Positions 2,828-12,779 of a DNA stretch of 35,259 nt are shown here, piece by piece; position 1 is the first letter of the stretch, and each line of letters opens with the position of its first letter. The stretch comes from a virus: the IMG/VR virus record IMGVR_UViG_3300020195_001440, positions 1 to 35,259 of that record, one strand, 5' to 3'. A program made the position numbers and the translations under genes. The notes below the pieces were generated by a model. It made no database searches, was not told the DNA's origin, and was given only the letters and a program-made list of their open reading frames with translations.

Positions 2828-4555
2828 TCAGTCGCCGCAGCAAGATGTGGAGTGGAAGGCGTGCAGCAGGCGCGAAGCCTCGGGAATGTTGGGGGAATAG
2901 GTAGGCGCGACCAGATCTTGAACTGGCCCCGTTCGCAGCGTTGCCAGCACGCCGGTGATCGTGTCGGCCACACGATCCGTAGCGAAGGCGTCCGTGGCAG
3001 CGTGGCGCACGGTGTCGCGGTTCATCGCCATCGCCGAGGCCAGCGCGTGGACGAAGGCCTGAAGCGCGATTTGGTCCCCGTCGCTCGCGATGGAAGATCG
3101 TCCCGGCGGCAGACGATCCACCAACATCCCCGTCACGCCGTGCTGGACGAACGCCGCGCCGGTGCGGACACCCACGACCGGGCAACCGGCCAGAAGGATT
3201 TCCTGTAGCGCCAGCGGCCCGTGGTCGTCGTCGGCGAGGTAGGCGCAGGCCCGCGACTTCCGCGCCGCATCGTACAGCTGCGCGCGGCGGTACTGGCCGT
3301 AATGAATCTGGATGTGGCGCGAGAACAGCTCCCCCAGGTGCTCCAGTAGGCCGGGGCGGTGACCGTTCTTCGCGTAGATCAGCAGATCGTACTCGTCCGA
3401 CAGCGGCTCGCCCGGCCACGGGTCGATGGGGTAGGGCCAGAGATGGATGGGCGCGGTGTTGGCCGGCCCACGATGTTTGGCGATCAGTTCACGATACCAC
3501 TCGCTGTGGCAGAACATCGCCCGGCAGTTCTTGGCGTCCAGCAGAGCGCATTCCTCGGCGTCGATCCGGGGAGAAGCGGAATGGGTGAACAGCATGTTCG
3601 GCCCCTGCACGAAGGGCAGGCCCTGGGTGTCCCACCATATGGCGTATTGCCGATCATCCCAATGCCAGAACCAGGGCAACGCACCCTTGCTGGCCGGCAA
3701 TGGTTTTATCGATAACCAGTCGAGCCCACCCTCAATCCGTTTCCGCAGCGCCTTCTGAAGCGCGAACATGCCATTGCTCGGTCCGTCGCCGCCGGGCGCG
3801 TTGACCGGGCCGATTAATTCAACCGGCATCCTGCCATCGCGGCCGCTGACATGCGGGCCAAAAGCATAGCGCTGGATGATGGGCACCTTCGTGTAGTCCC
3901 GTGGCCAGCCGATCGCCAGCGCCACCTTGTCCGTTTTGGGCTTGGACAGCTCCTGGTATCCTCGCTCGCCCATGTAACTCAGGTGGTAGCTGCCGTTGTT
4001 GACGCGGTAGATGTAGAACGGTGGCGCGAGCCGGGAGGGATCGCATTGTCCCACGCCCGCCGCCGTCAGCCGTCCGGCCAATTCCTGATCCTCACCATTG
4101 TCGAACGCGCCATAACCATGCACGCGCTGGAACGCACCACGCCGGAATGCCCATCCCCCGTGATACAAACCCCCGGTATTCCGCTCCTTCAGCGCATCAC
4201 CCTCCTCCAGCAGCACGACGCTTGGCCGGGACCATTGGGCGCGGCCCAGCGCCAGGGCCGAGGTCTTAAACCAGTGCGGAAGGTAGATGTCATCATCATC
4301 GGCGACCAGGAACCCTTCCACATCCGGCGAGGCCAGGGCGGCGCAGGCATTACGTTTCTCCCCAAGGGAATGGAAGCGCCGGGGCACCGAGATTAGCCGC
4401 CAGCCGTCCCCCTCCTGGTTCTCGTACTGCCCGGCATCATCCAGGATGATCAATTCCCGTATCTCCTTGGGGTAGTCCTGGCGCAGGAATGATTCGACCA
4501 GATGGCCAAGCGTCTGGGGCCGGAGATAGGTGCAACAGAGCGCGGCGAGTTTCAT
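2828..4555 (-). CDS. Two-domain glycosyltransferase (GT-A family 2 fused to a GT-B-like domain)
   Basis: A 575-residue protein with two sugar-transfer domains. Residues 1 to about 235 form a GT2-type GT-A fold: LAALCCTYLRP at the start, LDD at 38-40, the metal/nucleotide-sugar DDDD at 86-89 and a likely catalytic acidic pair in NGEDQEL (153-159). Residues about 245-540 form a GT-B-like domain with HSEWYRELI near 350 and a family-4-like sugar-nucleotide loop (446-480: GPLALQEILLAGCPVVGV, then HGVTG). No signal peptide or membrane segment is seen, so it should be cytoplasmic. Its ATG overlaps the stop of the preceding glycosyltransferase (ATGA). It is the last gene of the leftward late operon. 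The substrate is unknown; placement suggests the Ser-rich tail protein two genes upstream or a host surface glycan. Confidence 0.85.
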   Translation of the reverse strand: MKLAALCCTYLRPQTLGHLVESFLRQDYPKEIRELIILDDAGQYENQEGDGWRLISVPRRFHSLGEKRNACAALASPDVEGFLVADDDDIYLPHWFKTSALALGRAQWSRPSVVLLEEGDALKERNTGGLYHGGWAFRRGAFQRVHGYGAFDNGEDQELAGRLTAAGVGQCDPSRLAPPFYIYRVNNGSYHLSYMGERGYQELSKPKTDKVALAIGWPRDYTKVPIIQRYAFGPHVSGRDGRMPVELIGPVNAPGGDGPSNGMFALQKALRKRIEGGLDWLSIKPLPASKGALPWFWHWDDRQYAIWWDTQGLPFVQGPNMLFTHSASPRIDAEECALLDAKNCRAMFCHSEWYRELIAKHRGPANTAPIHLWPYPIDPWPGEPLSDEYDLLIYAKNGHRPGLLEHLGELFSRHIQIHYGQYRRAQLYDAARKSRACAYLADDDHGPLALQEILLAGCPVVGVRTGAAFVQHGVTGMLVDRLPPGRSSIASDGDQIALQAFVHALASAMAMNRDTVRHAATDAFATDRVADTITGVLATLRTGPVQDLVAPTYSPNIPEASRLLHAFHSTSCCGD

Positions 4556-5604
4556 GCGGCGGCCCTCGCAGTCACGGCAAGGGAATCGAATAGCCGTTTC
4601 CAGCCTGCCCAGATCACGTCGGGATTCACGAGCTTGTTCACCAGCCGGTCGTGGGCAGCGTGGATGATCCGCAGCCGCAGTTCTTCATCATGCGCCAGCA
4701 TGGCCGTGTAATGGGCGAGTTCGCAGTCGTCATCGCCCAGGAAGCCGGTCACCCCATGCTCGACCATCTCCCGCCAACCCCACAGGTTCTGGGTGACGAT
4801 CGGCACGCCGCACGCCATCGCCTCCAGTCCGGCGCGTGGCCAGTTCTCCCGAGCGCCGCCATTGACGGGTAGGGTGCAATGCAGGCGGCCGAAGAACTGC
4901 TGGGGCGTGATGGCGACCGGCCGCAGGCAGTCGGCCCATTCCGGGGGCGTTCCCAGCTTGGCGTGGGTGCGCTCGTCCATGCCCAGCATCAGCGCCCGCA
5001 GGTTGCCGTACTGGATACGCTGGTAGATCGGCCAGGTATTGCTGGACCACTTGTCCTGGTCGGGACGGGCGGCGCGGCCGACGACGAACGGCTCATTCCT
5101 GGCATGGGGGCGGGGGTTGAATTCCCACTCGTTGAGATCGAACGCGCCCCGGATGAGATGGCCGCTGGCGGGGTTGTATCCGTACTGGGCCAATTGCGGC
5201 TCGATCTGGTCGCGCTGGAACTGGCTTTGATAGACCATCCCGTCCATCGGGCCGTTCTCGGCGAAGAGGTGTTTCTCGTGGTCAAACAGGAAGGTCATGC
5301 AGTTGAGCCAGACCAGCGGGCATCCCAGCGCCCGCAGGCGCGGGCAGACCGAGATGAACTGGTCGTTGCAGAACCCCACGGTCGGGCAGCCAGGTAATTC
5401 CCGCACGCGCTCGATCTCGTCGGGCTTGACCTCGTGCGTGACGCAGCCCAGTTCATCGAGGCGGGCACGCCAGCGCGGGTCCGCCTGCCAGGTGGGGATC
5501 AGGTGAACGTCCAAGCCGAAGCGCCGCCAGATCTTGATGGTGTGCCAGGCCTCGGTGTTGGCCCCGCCCATCTCGCCGGGATATCCGATCAGAAAGACGC
5601 GCAT
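4552..5604 (-). CDS. GT4-family (GT-B fold) glycosyltransferase
   Basis: A 350-residue cytoplasmic glycosyltransferase. The N-terminal Rossmann half opens with MRVFLIGYPGEMGGANTEAW, where the Gly-rich loop is expected to bind the acceptor. The C-terminal half carries the family motif ENWPRAGLEAMACGVPIV (253-270) followed by WREMVEHGVTGFL, with the conserved E-x7-E-like spacing that contacts the nucleotide sugar. I chose the start at 5604: it follows a GGAG ribosome binding site and lies 13 bases after the stop of the Ser-rich tail gene, while longer frames run through that gene. It overlaps the next glycosyltransferase by four bases, so the two are probably translated together. Function by family is firm; the sugar and acceptor are not known. 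Confidence 0.88.
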   Translation of the reverse strand: MRVFLIGYPGEMGGANTEAWHTIKIWRRFGLDVHLIPTWQADPRWRARLDELGCVTHEVKPDEIERVRELPGCPTVGFCNDQFISVCPRLRALGCPLVWLNCMTFLFDHEKHLFAENGPMDGMVYQSQFQRDQIEPQLAQYGYNPASGHLIRGAFDLNEWEFNPRPHARNEPFVVGRAARPDQDKWSSNTWPIYQRIQYGNLRALMLGMDERTHAKLGTPPEWADCLRPVAITPQQFFGRLHCTLPVNGGARENWPRAGLEAMACGVPIVTQNLWGWREMVEHGVTGFLGDDDCELAHYTAMLAHDEELRLRIIHAAHDRLVNKLVNPDVIWAGWKRLFDSLAVTARAAA

Positions 5605-5617
5605 GGTGCATTCTCCA

Positions 5618-7621
5618 TCAATCAGAGGAGGAGGAATCTCCCTCTCCGCTGCTGCTGTCTCCAGAACTGCTGTCGCCGCTGCTGCTATCCCCGCTCGAAC
5701 TGCCGTCGTTCCCGGAACTGCTGCTGTCACCGCTGGAGGAGTCGGTGCCGCTGCTCGAATCGTCATAGGAACTGGATGAGGTGGACGGGCTGGTCGGCCC
5801 GCCGCTGGAAGTTTGCGACGATGAGGACGGCGGGTTGCTGCTCGACGATGAGGATGATGGCGCTGAAGACGACATGGTGACTCCCGAAGAGGATGAAGAA
5901 CCGCTGGACGAACTGCTGCCCGGCGGCGGCGGCGGGTTGCCTGACGATGATCCCGGAGGCCCGCTGCTCGACGGCGCGGAGGAACTGCCGCCGGAGGAAG
6001 ATTGACCCGAAGACGAGGGAGCCGACGATGATGGGCCGGAGGACGATTGGCCCGATGAGGAGGGCGCAGAGGATGAACCCGACGAACTGCTGCCCGAAGA
6101 GGATGATCCGCTGCTGGAACTGCCGCAGCATTTGCAGCAGCAGCATCCGGCCTGGTGATCCAGCGTCCACGGCCCGGTGGTCTTGGTCAGCGCGCCGCCG
6201 ACCAGCGTGATCGTCACGGTGCGGAAGTAGACGTTGAGCTTGCCGTCCTCACAGCGCACGTCGGTTTCGTTGATGGTGACGCCGCCGCCGGACGACCCGC
6301 TTCCCGAAGAACCGCTCCCGGATGACCCGCTCCCGGAGGAACCGCTGCCCGAGGAACTCGATCCCGACGATGAGCCGCCCGATGACGATGGCGCGCTGGA
6401 CGAGGACGATGAACCGGATGATCCGCTGCTCGAGCCGCCGCTGCCGGAGGAGGATTCGCAGCACCCCTCGCCCAGGTTCAGCACCTCCCACTTGCAGCTG
6501 TCGGCGTAGTGCTTCGCCATGCCGTAGGTGCCGGCGGGGACGAAGCTGGGCTTGTCGCAGGTGCAGGTGCCGCCGGATGACCCCTGGCACTTGCAGATGT
6601 TCGGGCAGACCACGCCGACCGAGTCATGCACGGTGAACGTCAGGTCGACCGGGCACCAGCGCCCGTACTGATACAGCACCAGCTTCGCCAGCGCCGAGCC
6701 GCATCGAGAGAGCGGCGTCATCAGGCGGAAGCGCCAGTGGTCCTCATACGAATCGATCACCTGCCAGCGCCCATCCTGCTCGTTGAAGTGACACCAGACC
6801 CAGTCGCCGCAGCCGAACTTGGCCGGGAACAGCCCGGTCGCCTTGTGCAGGGCGATGAGTTGCTGGCGATGCTGGCCGGGATAGCCGACGACATGCCAGA
6901 TGGTTTGCGTGGGTTCGCTGCTGGCGGCGGCGTAGGTGCAGGAATCGGTGAAGAAGTAAACCGGGCGGCAGTTCTCCATCTTCGTCCAGCCGTCCGGCTC
7001 GCCGCCGCCTGTCTCTCCCGATGAGCCCGATCCGCTGCACCCCCGGCCCGGCACCCAGGTGCCGTTCAGCTCGAAGATGGCGCACTTCGGCCGATCTCCT
7101 AGCCGCACCACCGCCCACTTGATCCCCAGGCCCGCCTCTTTCCACAGGATGCGGGTCGATCCCCACGGCGCGGTCTTGAGCCGGTCGCACTGGCCTTCAT
7201 CCACATCGGCGAAGCGATCGGTCTCGGTGATCACTCGGATGCGGGCGACGGTGACCCCCGCGACGATAGCCCGGCCGACCCCATCCTCGTCGAGCGGCTC
7301 CTGTAGCACGACGAACTTGCCGAAGTGCTTTTCCTGCGGCACCACGCCCTTGAGCGCCACCTGGTTCTTGAACTCGTCGAGGTTGTCGCCCGGGGCGATG
7401 ATCGGATCATCGATCCCCAGGATGTCGAAGCGTGCCCGCTTCGCCCCGGACTTGTTCTTGGCGAGGATGATCCCAGCCGAGCGGTGCGCGCGGCTGGCCC
7501 CGGACTCGTTGCCGGTCTGATGCTTCTGCACCCATTGCGTCGCGTCGACAAAGGCGTTGTACGCCGCCGCCGGGATGCGGAGCTTCTCGTGGGGGCGAAC
7601 TTTTTGCAGCGGGTCGGCCAT
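5618..7621 (-). CDS. Phage tail protein with long Ser/Gly-rich regions and Cys clusters
   Basis: A 667-residue protein in several parts. Residues 1-195 form an ordinary globular domain (LRIPAAAYNAFVDA at 16-29). Residues 196-387 are a Cys-rich region with several C-x1/2-C pairs (CKC 343-345, CTC 353-355, CC 387-388). Residues 389-447 are a Ser/Gly linker. Residues 448-492 form a small beta-looking module, followed by a CCCCKCC cluster at 493-499. Residues 500-667 are a Ser-rich tail of SSSG, SSSAP and SSSGD units that turns acidic at the end. Serine codons are mixed (AGC, AGT, TCG, TCC, TCT), so the repeats look selected as protein rather than made by DNA slippage. Its ATG overlaps the preceding stop by one base. 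It occupies the tail-tip or fibre slot and is followed directly by two glycosyltransferases. I recognise no enzyme domain. Confidence 0.75.
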   Translation of the reverse strand: MADPLQKVRPHEKLRIPAAAYNAFVDATQWVQKHQTGNESGASRAHRSAGIILAKNKSGAKRARFDILGIDDPIIAPGDNLDEFKNQVALKGVVPQEKHFGKFVVLQEPLDEDGVGRAIVAGVTVARIRVITETDRFADVDEGQCDRLKTAPWGSTRILWKEAGLGIKWAVVRLGDRPKCAIFELNGTWVPGRGCSGSGSSGETGGGEPDGWTKMENCRPVYFFTDSCTYAAASSEPTQTIWHVVGYPGQHRQQLIALHKATGLFPAKFGCGDWVWCHFNEQDGRWQVIDSYEDHWRFRLMTPLSRCGSALAKLVLYQYGRWCPVDLTFTVHDSVGVVCPNICKCQGSSGGTCTCDKPSFVPAGTYGMAKHYADSCKWEVLNLGEGCCESSSGSGGSSSGSSGSSSSSSAPSSSGGSSSGSSSSGSGSSGSGSSGSGSSGSGSSGGGVTINETDVRCEDGKLNVYFRTVTITLVGGALTKTTGPWTLDHQAGCCCCKCCGSSSSGSSSSGSSSSGSSSAPSSSGQSSSGPSSSAPSSSGQSSSGGSSSAPSSSGPPGSSSGNPPPPPGSSSSSGSSSSSGVTMSSSAPSSSSSSSNPPSSSSQTSSGGPTSPSTSSSSYDDSSSGTDSSSGDSSSSGNDGSSSGDSSSGDSSSGDSSSGEGDSSSSD

Positions 7622-8445
7622 CAGAGTCCCAGCCCTCCGAAGTCCCCCAGCTCGTAAACCTTCTCGACGTAGGCGGCGATCGGGCGCTTCACCAGCACGT
7701 TGGCCGCCGCGTCATCCACGTCCGCATACCGCACCCAGAGGTACTCCCACCCCTTTTTGTCGATCCCGACGATGTCGCCAACGGTCAGGCCGGTGACGTT
7801 GGGGCTGGCGGCGAAGTCGTAGGAGATCTCCACATTGCCGTCGTCGCGCGGCTCGCCGATCTTCGTGCCGTTGAATAGGCACTCACACTCGTTGAGCGAG
7901 ATCGTCATGCCCGTCAGCGTGTCGCTGACCGAGAAGGTGCCGGTGTTGACCTTGCCGGTGCGGTCGTACAGCGTGCCGAGATCGGGGACGCCCGCCGGCG
8001 CGAAGACCTTGGTCGCGGTGAACTTGAAGACCGGCAGGATGATGTCCACGCCCTCGACGTTGTCGTGGGTGACGCCGATCGCCCCCTTGAAGTCCGGGGG
8101 TGTTTTCCCCGGAGGCGCGTATTTGTGGATCGTCTCCAGGCTCTGGGTGATATGCGTGGTGCCCCCGGTGGTGTCGACGCTCAGCTTGATGGTCCCCACG
8201 TCGCTGTGAACCTGGTCCTGCGGCGCGTAGCGGACGGTCCCCTCCCACAACTCGTTACCCGTCTGCTCGACGTGCCAGCTCTTGCGCCGCAGGCCGTCGT
8301 AGTTGATCGGCGTGCTGGCGACGAGAGCGCCCTTGAGGGCGACCTCGTCGTCGCTGCCGCGCAGGATGAAGATCAGGTCGGTCTGGGCGTTCTCCCCGCC
8401 CGTGGCCGGCCTGCTCTGGAACTTTTCGACGACGGAGATGCTCAT
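7621..8445 (-). CDS. Distal tail-like structural protein
   Basis: A 274-residue protein directly downstream of the tape measure gene, in the position of the distal tail/tail-tip protein of siphoviruses. It starts at 8445 (MSISVVEKFQSR), sharing a base with the tape measure stop (TAATG); the longer in-frame reading only shadows the tape measure gene. The sequence is rich in beta-prone segments (VDIILPVFKFTATKVF, GNVEISYDFAASPNVTG), and there is no enzymatic motif. The assignment is by gene order and character, not by a recognised family; another tail-tip component is possible. Confidence 0.6.
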   Translation of the reverse strand: MSISVVEKFQSRPATGGENAQTDLIFILRGSDDEVALKGALVASTPINYDGLRRKSWHVEQTGNELWEGTVRYAPQDQVHSDVGTIKLSVDTTGGTTHITQSLETIHKYAPPGKTPPDFKGAIGVTHDNVEGVDIILPVFKFTATKVFAPAGVPDLGTLYDRTGKVNTGTFSVSDTLTGMTISLNECECLFNGTKIGEPRDDGNVEISYDFAASPNVTGLTVGDIVGIDKKGWEYLWVRYADVDDAAANVLVKRPIAAYVEKVYELGDFGGLGL

Positions 8446-10442
8446 TAGTCGAACTCCGCTCCCGCGTCGCGGAGTTGCTCGAGGATCTTCTTGGTGTTCC
8501 TGGCCGTGTCCTCGGCCGCCTTGGTGAGCCGATCGGCCGCGCCGCCGGCCCCGAACCGCCGGGCCTCGGGGGCGCTGAAGGTGCCGCGCACGCCGATGTT
8601 CTTCTGCGCCTGCTCCAGCGGGTAACCGAGGCTGCTCAGGTGGGAGATGTGCTTGGGCGGGCCGTCCGTCTTGTCCGGCCCGGCCTCCTCTCGATCCATT
8701 CGCTTCTTGCGGGCCTCGGCCAGCGCCGCCTGCCACTGGGCCTTGGCCTTGGCCAGTTCGTCCTGCGTGGCCTGGGTCTTGGCGTCCCCCTCGGCCCTGG
8801 CCGCCGCAATGGCGTCGTCATACGCCTGTCCGACCCGCGCCAGTTCCGCATCATGCTGTTTGGACTCCGCGTCCCGCGTGCCGGACCGCTGCTGCTCGAT
8901 CTGGTTCAGGTCGGCGCTGCGGTTCTGCTCGATCTCGCGCTGGTTGGCGTCGCTCTGCTGGTGGTTCATCTTCTTGGCGGCGTCCACGTCCAGCGTGCTG
9001 TCGAACTGCCCCATCAATTCGAGCCAGCGGTCGGCGAGCCATGTCTGCGTTCCCTCCCACACGCTCTGCACGGTGCTGCTGAACTTGGTCCAGACGCTGG
9101 AGAGAAAGGCCGTCGTCTCGATCCAGGCGACGGTCAGGGCGTGCTGCACGATCTCCCAGGCGGCGAGGATGCCGTAGAACGCCCCATAGCCGACCTTGAT
9201 GAACCAGAGCTTGAACTCCAGCCAGGCCGGCTGAAGCGCCGCGATCCCCCGGTTCCATTCGAGCTTGAGGGTGAGCCAGAGGATCTTGGCGGCCAGCGCA
9301 ATGTCGCCGGCGGCCAGGGCGTCCCCGATTCCCTGCCACGCCGCGACCGCATCCTGCTTGAGGACGTTGAACTTGGCCGAGAGCCATCCCAGCGCCTTCG
9401 CCCCCGCCCCCGACACATAGATAAGGTACGCGCCCAGCGCCACCAGGGCGGCGATCACCAGCCCGATGGGGGAGACCAGCGCGCCGACCACCGTGCCCAG
9501 GACGCCCATCACCGTCCCCACGCCGGTGACGACCGCCGCCAGAACGGCGAATCCCTGGCCGAGGACGGAGATGACGGTGCCGGCGACCACCATCGCGCCG
9601 CCGAGGGCGACCAGCGCGACCGCGCCCTTGAACACGCCGACGACCAGTTCCTTGTTGGCCTTGATCCAGGCGCTGGCCGAGACGGTCACGTCGGTAATCC
9701 ACTTGATGGCGTCGGACAGGATGGGAATGAGGGCAGAGCCGATCGTGGCGACGGCCTTCTTGAGGACCATGTGCAGCGCGTCGATCTGGTCGCCAAAAGA
9801 CTCGGCCGCCTGGGCATCCTCGGTGCTCATGACCAGCCCGAGCTTCTCCGCCTGCTTCTGAAGCGCCTCGATCCCGGCCGCGCCGTCATTGAAGAGCGGG
9901 AGCAGCGCCGTCCCCGATCGCCCGAACACCTCCATCGCCAGCGCCGCCTTGACCGTGGGGTCTTGGATTTGAGAGATGCGGTCGGCGAGCAGCTTGAATT
10001 GCTGATCGGGGGAGAGGTCGTCGAGGTCGGCGATGGTGATGTTGAGCAGCTTGAGCGCGTCCTGCGCGGACACCGACCCCATCGCCGCGGCGGTCAGGGT
10101 CTTCTGCATCTTCTTCAGGCCCGTCTCGACCGTGGCCAGGTCGCTGCCCGACTGGGCGGCGGCGAAGCCGAGGGAGGACAAGGCCTCAACCGACACGCCC
10201 GTTCGCTGGCTCATGTCGACTAGCTCGCTGCCCATGTCCGCAATCGCCTTGGCGGCCAATCCCATTGGCGCGAGGATCGCCGCGCCCAGGCCCAGGAAGC
10301 GCGTGCCCATCTCGCGGACGGTAGCGCCGAACGCGCTGAGCTTGCGGGCGGCGGCGTTGAGTCCGCGGGCCAGGGCCTTGGAATCGACGCCGAGCTCGAC
10401 GTAGGCCCGCCCGGCCCGGATGTTGGATGCGCCGCCGGGCAT
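8445..10442 (-). CDS. Tail tape measure protein
   Basis: A 665-residue protein that sets tail length and is packed in the tail lumen. It shows the family pattern: an N-terminal helical region with SVEALSSLGFAAAQSG (about 83-98) and FGRSGTALLPLFNDG (about 178-192), typical of phage tape measures; then about 100 hydrophobic residues (about 265-365) rich in Val, Ala and Gly that can span membranes; Trp-rich helices; and a charged coiled coil (about 500-610, rich in Gln, Glu, Ala). By the usual rule of about 1.5 angstrom per residue the tail would be near 100 nm. A GGAGG ribosome binding site precedes the ATG at 10442. A long open frame on the opposite strand is a shadow. Confidence 0.9.
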   Translation of the reverse strand: MPGGASNIRAGRAYVELGVDSKALARGLNAAARKLSAFGATVREMGTRFLGLGAAILAPMGLAAKAIADMGSELVDMSQRTGVSVEALSSLGFAAAQSGSDLATVETGLKKMQKTLTAAAMGSVSAQDALKLLNITIADLDDLSPDQQFKLLADRISQIQDPTVKAALAMEVFGRSGTALLPLFNDGAAGIEALQKQAEKLGLVMSTEDAQAAESFGDQIDALHMVLKKAVATIGSALIPILSDAIKWITDVTVSASAWIKANKELVVGVFKGAVALVALGGAMVVAGTVISVLGQGFAVLAAVVTGVGTVMGVLGTVVGALVSPIGLVIAALVALGAYLIYVSGAGAKALGWLSAKFNVLKQDAVAAWQGIGDALAAGDIALAAKILWLTLKLEWNRGIAALQPAWLEFKLWFIKVGYGAFYGILAAWEIVQHALTVAWIETTAFLSSVWTKFSSTVQSVWEGTQTWLADRWLELMGQFDSTLDVDAAKKMNHQQSDANQREIEQNRSADLNQIEQQRSGTRDAESKQHDAELARVGQAYDDAIAAARAEGDAKTQATQDELAKAKAQWQAALAEARKKRMDREEAGPDKTDGPPKHISHLSSLGYPLEQAQKNIGVRGTFSAPEARRFGAGGAADRLTKAAEDTARNTKKILEQLRDAGAEFD

Positions 10443-12108: not shown

Positions 12109-12525
12109 TCAGCCTGAGGACGATTCCCCGCTGCCGGAGGAGCCGCCGGTGCCGCTACCGCTCCAGCCGCTGGAACCTTCGAACCCGGAACTGCTGCCGG
12201 AATCGCCGGAACTGGAATCCGTGCCCGAACTGCTGTCGCCGCTGGAACTGCCAGCTCCGCTTGAACTGCTCGTGCCGTCGCCGACGACCAGCCCGTTGAT
12301 GACCGTGTAGTTGCCACTGAGGGCGCTGATGACGCCCGTCCAGCCATTGGTTTGAACCGGGCCGACCTGGTTGGCCCCGATGTGATAGGACTGGATCGCC
12401 CCGGCTTGAATCGAGCCCGCCGTGACCTGGCCACCAGCCACTCCAGCGACGCGCCGGTAGGTGACGCCGTCCGGAACGTTGTCCAAGGTGCCGACGAAGA
12501 TATTGGTGACGCTGCGGTAGCCCAT
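12109..12525 (-). CDS. Small tail-region protein with Ser/Gly-rich C-terminus
   Basis: A 138-residue protein. Residues 1-84 form a compact beta-like domain with a short repeated theme (VTAGSIQAGAIQSYHIGANQ). Residues 86-138 are almost wholly Ser, Gly, Asp and Thr (SSSGDSSSG units). This tail has the same style as the C-terminus of the 667-residue tail protein at 5618-7621, so both may share a modification or display function. The start at 12525 overlaps the previous stop by one base (TGATG). I do not recognise a family for the N-terminal domain. Confidence 0.6.
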   Translation of the reverse strand: MGYRSVTNIFVGTLDNVPDGVTYRRVAGVAGGQVTAGSIQAGAIQSYHIGANQVGPVQTNGWTGVISALSGNYTVINGLVVGDGTSSSSGAGSSSGDSSSGTDSSSGDSGSSSGFEGSSGWSGSGTGGSSGSGESSSG

Positions 12526-12779
12526 CACCAGGTCCCTCCCACAAGGGTGACGGTGTCGCCGGCGTTGCCGCGCACCTGAAGGGTGGAGAGGTCGATGCTC
12601 TGGAAGTCGTGCCATTCGCCCGCGACCCAGGGTACGTCCGTGCCGTCGTCGCCCTTAAAGAGCACGACGCCGGCGTTGGCCGGCGGGCAGGAGATCGTCA
12701 CCGACCCGATCAGCTTCTGGCTGACCAGAGGCTGGTAGGAGCCGGTGACGACGACTTTTCGCATGATGACGTTGTTCAT
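12525..12779 (-). CDS. Small virion-region protein, unknown
   Basis: An 84-residue protein with a beta-rich pattern (KLIGSVTISCPPANAGVVLFKGDDG, then VRGNAGDTVTLVGGTW). It lies between the tail-terminator-like gene and the 138-residue Ser-rich gene and is coupled to the latter by a one-base overlap. I do not recognise the family. The pattern suggests a small structural or decoration protein of the head or tail, but only the position supports that. Confidence 0.55.
   Translation of the reverse strand: MNNVIMRKVVVTGSYQPLVSQKLIGSVTISCPPANAGVVLFKGDDGTDVPWVAGEWHDFQSIDLSTLQVRGNAGDTVTLVGGTW

Follow-up and report, generated by a model that had tools for sequence, protein, structure and literature searches.

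The linear 35.3-kb virus record IMGVR_UViG_3300020195_001440 of IMG/VR, analysed over its whole length of 35,259 nucleotides (the window), carries on its minus strand a three-gene cassette (7621-2828) that is coupled to the tail genes of a planctomycete phage and encodes, in this order, a serine-rich protein that we call SerTail, a GT4-family glycosyltransferase (GT), and a protein in which a GT2 domain is fused to a GT-B domain (GT2/GT-B). With a probability of roughly 0.7, the two enzymes build O-glycans on the serine-rich arms of a virion appendage, and the cassette would then be a self-contained virion glycoprotein module. From the observed gene order, conservation, domain content, selection, and association with serine-rich proteins we infer the glycosylation itself. 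That the enzymes modify the serine-rich protein, as the initial annotation had proposed, is the best reading because serine-rich and GT genes co-occur, because accessory genes for glycan decoration lie in or beside the same slot, and because purifying selection acts on both enzymes (pN/pS 0.13-0.22); each side of the coupling also occurs without the other.

Association of serine-rich proteins with the glycosyltransferase genes

Relatives were sought by scans of viral contigs and of genomes, and the block was found in phage contigs and in metagenome-assembled genomes (MAGs) of planctomycetes from the Pirellulales, Thermoguttaceae, Isosphaeraceae, Gemmataceae, and Phycisphaerales. A prophage that bears the cassette is present in L185, a single-contig planctomycete genome of 7 Mb from a cultured strain. 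Among the 27 loci of the viral GT4 scan, the upstream gene was Ser-rich wherever a co-oriented upstream gene was visible, usually at a distance of 3-28 bp. The upstream protein is only moderately Ser-rich in the pair L169/L171 (45% Ser at best) and has an unrelated N-terminal part in L006/L170, and the contigs L005/L167 are truncated upstream of GT4. For a second comparison, loci of p7621, the conserved tail-module protein encoded immediately upstream of SerTail, were taken (the best 80 of 468), combined with a scan for SerN, the folded N-terminal part of SerTail, and clustered at 80%. GT4 was present in 8/11 clusters with a Ser-rich protein and in 0/23 clusters with a non-Ser SerN (p 9e-6, uncorrected for descent, with a SerN query built from GT-linked sequences and therefore favouring their relatives). 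A search of 45 records with PF00534 and PF00535 gave matches only in L021, L086, L087, and L096, and in the records of non-Ser relatives neither family was detected except in L087 and L096. The expectation that Ser-rich proteins and GT genes would occur together in other phages thus largely holds.

In sister cassettes, further genes occupy or adjoin the same place. Some relatives have an insertion between GT4 and GT2/GT-B, which is either a pyruvyl transferase gene, a radical-SAM gene, or a small gene that is methyltransferase-like in look and has no Pfam match; in others, a GT25-methyltransferase fusion precedes GT4, a sulfotransferase is present, or a multi-domain pyruvyl/GT2/GT4 protein is encoded downstream. 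The Pfam families of these genes are PF04230, PF04055, PF13469, and PF01755+PF13578, and by its gene content the cassette resembles an assembly line for a glycan whose decoration varies. L087 (10508-17546) has a different glycan cassette at this position: after a non-Ser SerN come a TubC_N-GT2 protein and a methyltransferase/GT2/GT-D-like protein of 1010 aa. A complete cassette was also seen in L117, a contig labelled as a Bacteroidales MAG, which is probably misbinned planctomycete phage DNA.

Distant GT4 homologues, most of them about 30% identical, were also found on chromosomes, where an unrelated Ser-rich protein was encoded at most 4 kb away in 12/27 loci (7 of the first 10 sampled and 5 of the 17 later ones). 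As a control, only 1/80 nine-kb tiles from five GT4-bearing genomes contained a Ser-rich protein (p 8e-8, uncorrected for descent; the loci are in part related by descent, and some of the contigs are short). Near the GT4 homologues of L193 (4569-11615) and L194 (1542-7670), the chromosome encodes giant proteins that are Ser-rich at the N-terminus; the L193 protein is of Rhs type, and the L194 protein comes from Rhodopirellula solitaria. In L195 (9538-13820), from the proteobacterial isolate Paraburkholderia, a Ser-rich protein is followed after 49 bp by GT4 and then by a double-GT2 protein.

Several observations weigh against the proposed coupling. The SerN tree shows only about 4-5 trait changes, so that the p value of 9e-6 overstates independence, and an independent-pairs sign test on this tree was not significant, the changes being too few. 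Ser-rich SerN relatives without GT4 exist in L024, L036, and L148; the arms therefore do not strictly require these enzymes, and they can do without modification or rely on enzymes of the host. The L059 group has a separate Ser-rich Hint protein without a GT, in L120 and L121 the two enzymes are encoded in a virion-gene context that lacks a Ser-rich neighbour, and for 15/27 of the chromosomal GT4 loci no Ser-rich protein is encoded within 4 kb. A strict rule by which a protein is Ser-rich if and only if a GT is present was rejected, with exceptions both ways.

As to the exceptional loci themselves, the Ser-rich virion-module proteins without GTs lie at 9817-11472 in L036 and at 12270-13778 in L059; the latter has a Hint_2 domain, and the former an apparently similar Hint-like insert between Ser/Gly-rich parts. 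L120 (6767-10711) and L121 are phage-like loci in which GT4 and GT2/GT-B follow a non-Ser virion-module protein.

Mere co-inheritance of the block within one phage lineage, with no functional coupling, would fit a SerN tree on which the label changes only a few times. It is nevertheless a very improbable account, since phages with only about 40-50% identity in the tape measure protein and p7621 share about 70% identity in GT4 and GT2/GT-B, a different tail protein precedes the enzymes in L006, the middle genes are swapped, and the association recurs on chromosomes with unrelated Ser-rich proteins. Alternatively, the enzymes might glycosylate virion proteins of any kind, such as tube or capsid, with the Ser-rich protein as a mere neighbour or as one of several targets. 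Passages of PMC12363180 and PMC12619734, citing Freeman 2023, report that the mycobacteriophages Che8, Corndog, and Myrna have their own capsid and tail-tube subunits glycosylated, and this alternative would accommodate the enzyme pair of L120/L121 as well as the other GTs that follow a non-Ser SerN in L087 and L096. We consider it unlikely given the very consistent adjacency to Ser-rich proteins, non-homologous ones included.

The serine-rich protein SerTail

The SerTail open reading frame (ORF; 5618-7621, minus strand) encodes 667 aa. Residues 1-388 form the folded part SerN (6458..7621), for which AlphaFold2 (AF2) gave a model with a mean pLDDT of 81 and a pTM of 0.54. A first Ser/Gly-rich stretch follows at residues 389-447 (6281..6457; 37/59 Ser, 63%), then a conserved Cys-rich domain with 7 Cys at residues 448-499 (6125..6280), and finally a second Ser-rich arm at residues 500-667 (5621..6124; 97/168 Ser, 58%), so that both Ser-rich stretches of the initial annotation were recovered. 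The ETDVRC...AGCC of the Cys-rich domain is kept in 10/10 aligned relatives. In the remaining phage proteins, Ser makes up 5% on average, and no stretch of 40 aa has more than 8. TCN and AGY codons are mixed in SerTail in the same way as in other genes, and the arms are therefore not a nucleotide repeat artefact. In L011 (3003-5600), a SerTail relative has an extra non-Ser C-terminal domain beyond its Ser-rich arm.

SerTail had been annotated as a tail protein, but it has no match in Pfam, PHROG, or NCBIfam, and a PDB sequence-profile search with SerN gave none. The label is positional only: the gene follows those of the tape measure and p7621, and the N-terminal domain is most like capsid cement proteins and head-fibre bases. 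In the AF2 model, residues 46-177 are predicted to form a cement- or decoration-like beta domain and residues 290-388 a generic OB-like one. Comparison of the SerN model with VIA gave Z 11.7 to HFTV1 (8qsy), about 9 to FCWL1 and T1 capsid chains, and 7.7 to the phi29 head-fibre base, while the best Foldseek E value was 0.013. The fold of residues 46-177 also occurs in fibre-like predicted proteins from uncultured phages, and on these models SerTail is probably an attached virion appendage. No LPxTG motif is present in SerTail, and no signal peptide was apparent by inspection, no predictor being used: the N-terminus (MADPLQKVRPHEKLRIPAAAYN) is charged and without a hydrophobic core.

A second, short Ser-rich protein is encoded between tail genes (12109..12531, minus strand; start codon uncertain), and its relative in L004 (354-836) is 93% identical over the first 83 aa. 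The DNA of this short gene (12224-12269) is similar to that of the large Ser-rich gene. The short protein is a possible further substrate.

The two glycosyltransferases

The combination of a GT4 enzyme with a GT2/GT-B fusion, three sugar-transfer domains in all, was borne out, with the third domain below the Pfam cut-offs. The GT4 ORF (4552-5604, minus strand; 350 aa counted from the ATG at 5604) matches PF00534 with 41.9 bits (1e-10; cut-off 26.4), and its EX7E motif at residues 253-261 reads ENWPRAGLE, with E253 and E261 invariant across 32 homologues; its PDB profile match to Gtf1 was weak (3.5e-4). The fusion ORF (2828-4555, minus strand) encodes 575 aa. Its GT2 half, of GT-A type (3881..4555), matches PF00535 with 26.9 bits (5.5e-6; cut-off 23.3) and has a DDDD motif at 86-89; D86-D89 and an NGEDQ motif are invariant across 22 homologues. 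Since the AF2 model of this half is poor (pLDDT about 30-50), its fold assignment rests on Pfam and motifs. The second half (residues 241-543; 2927..3835) adopts a GT-B fold in the AF2 model, with VIA Z scores of 19.6 over 284 residues to GlgM (6tvp) and 17 to SdgB, and a DX7E motif (D444-E452) replaces the canonical EX7E; on this model, the third domain of the cassette is a predicted enzyme of GT-B fold and GT4-like type. A PDB sequence-profile search with GT2/GT-B gave no match. Some support for the proposed function comes from the likeness of the GT-B half to SdgB, which glycosylates Ser-Asp repeats, though it also resembles many other GT4 enzymes.

The initial annotation had named lysogenic conversion of the host surface as the alternative. 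The enzymes would then alter the surface polysaccharide of the lysogen, to the exclusion of other phages. GT2 and GT4 enzymes, pyruvyl transferases, and sulfotransferases are indeed common in surface polysaccharide clusters, and a serine integrase encoded at the right of the window (phrog_95, 5e-119) indicates that the phage is probably temperate. Yet neither enzyme has a transmembrane-like stretch (maximum 19-aa hydropathy 1.18 and 1.48), in which the cassette differs from lysogenic-conversion gtr cassettes, as it does in having virion genes as neighbours, and no flippase or polytopic gtr-type partner was found among the cassette genes scanned. The enzymes are, moreover, translationally coupled to late tail genes and linked to a Ser-rich protein, and on chromosomes to unrelated ones. 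Because of the lack of membrane segments and the position inside the late structural operon, lysogenic conversion is disfavoured and appears unlikely.

Organization of the late operon

The late operon on the minus strand runs through terminase, portal, protease/capsid, cement protein, tail tube, tape measure (8445..10442, minus strand; phrog_8462, 1e-48), and p7621 (7621..8457, minus strand) to the Ser-rich protein, GT4, and GT2/GT-B. The p7621 family was seen in about 100 ORFs, and in most relatives a Ser-rich protein is encoded directly downstream. The p7621 stop overlaps the SerTail start (..CTCTGATGGCC..), 13 bp separate SerTail from GT4, and GT4 and GT2/GT-B overlap by 4 bp (ATGA); the last two junctions are exactly those first annotated. 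Phage GTs that glycosylate DNA are described in a passage of PMC12619734 citing Pyle 2024, and the enzymes might on this precedent decorate the phage genome. Such a role is highly improbable, with both genes in a structural operon away from genes of DNA-base synthesis and with chromosomal homologues that accompany Ser-rich and Rhs proteins.

Beyond the cassette (1-2190) lies an HsdM-type DNA methylase gene (PF02384, PF12161), and in the relatives L004 and L098 large DEAD/SNF2 helicase genes (ResIII domain) lie downstream of GT2/GT-B; this stretch may be a slot for defence genes or host flank. Between the left and right flanks, no direct repeats of at least 14 bp were found as possible prophage ends.

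Comparison with known systems and proposed function

Adhesins of the serine-rich repeat protein (SRRP) type are O-glycosylated by GtfA/GtfB, which has a DUF1975 domain, and by variable further GTs, and are then exported by the accessory Sec (aSec) system (PMC6973325). The anatomy of the phage cassette mirrors that of these Gram-positive adhesin loci, as initially suggested: Ser-rich arms flank a folded domain, genes for cytoplasmic GTs are linked, and further GTs and decorating enzymes vary. A Pfam scan of both enzymes returned GT domains only and no DUF1975, SerTail has neither LPXTG nor an apparent signal peptide, and it is a virion-module protein of Planctomycetota phages; because of the missing DUF1975, LPXTG, and signal peptide, we do not assign the cassette to the SRRP/aSec family despite the like anatomy. 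No SecA2 or SecY2 turned up in general scans of the window proteins, none of which was aimed at them.

As in Che8, Corndog, and Myrna, phage-encoded GTs would act on the phage's own particle proteins. Unlike in those phages, the GTs are coupled to a Ser-rich protein, and no homologue of SerN, p7621, GT4, or GT2/GT-B was found among 50,697 phage records; the relative Maravista carries its GTs close to the 3' terminus of its genome (PMC11256854). With SdgA and SdgB, which modify Ser-Asp repeat proteins of Staphylococcus, the fusion shares a GT-B domain of GT4 type, but many other GT4 enzymes resemble its GT-B half just as closely or more closely, and the target of SdgA/SdgB is a cell-surface adhesin. 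The beta fold predicted for SerTail 46-177 resembles that of the phi29 head fibre gp8.5 and of capsid cement proteins (Z 8-12), whereas the SerTail gene follows the tape measure gene instead of lying beside the capsid gene, and the phage encodes a separate cement protein (PF09956). The cassette is new in combining phage virion glycosylation with the glycosylation of Ser-rich adhesins, each known in itself; among open PubMed Central papers, we found none that describes it.

In the model that we propose, the structural protein made by the phage would attach to the virion through its folded N-terminal domain and would carry two Ser-rich arms, one on either side of a small Cys-rich domain. The glycosylating enzymes would be co-translated with SerTail, and the arms would be glycosylated in the cytoplasm before assembly, with GT4 and the GT2/GT-B fusion jointly priming serines and extending a short glycan. 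Pyruvyl, sulfo-, methyl-, and GT25 transferases inserted in or beside the same place in other phages would make the glycan differ between phages. The resulting appendage would be hydrophilic and mucin-like and may affect adsorption or shielding. The order in which the enzymes act, the sugars, the location in the particle, and the benefit are what we infer here. More tentatively, and at somewhat less than even odds, the GT4 and GT2-type pair may be the core of an undescribed system for O-glycosylation of Ser-rich proteins in Planctomycetota, unrelated to GtfA/GtfB, whose chromosomally encoded targets would be Ser-rich proteins (Rhs among others) and which phages would have captured for swappable, acid-decorated, mucin-like virion appendages.

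The cassette provides a concrete and testable gene set by which a single virion protein may be glycosylated with enzymes dedicated to it, in the barely studied phages of Planctomycetota, and it hints at a Ser-rich glycosylation system of the host that uses the same enzyme family. If the proposed function is correct, virion glycosylation would extend beyond capsid and tube subunits, and the enzymes would add to the candidate peptide O-glycosyltransferases, with Ser-Gly as a simple acceptor.

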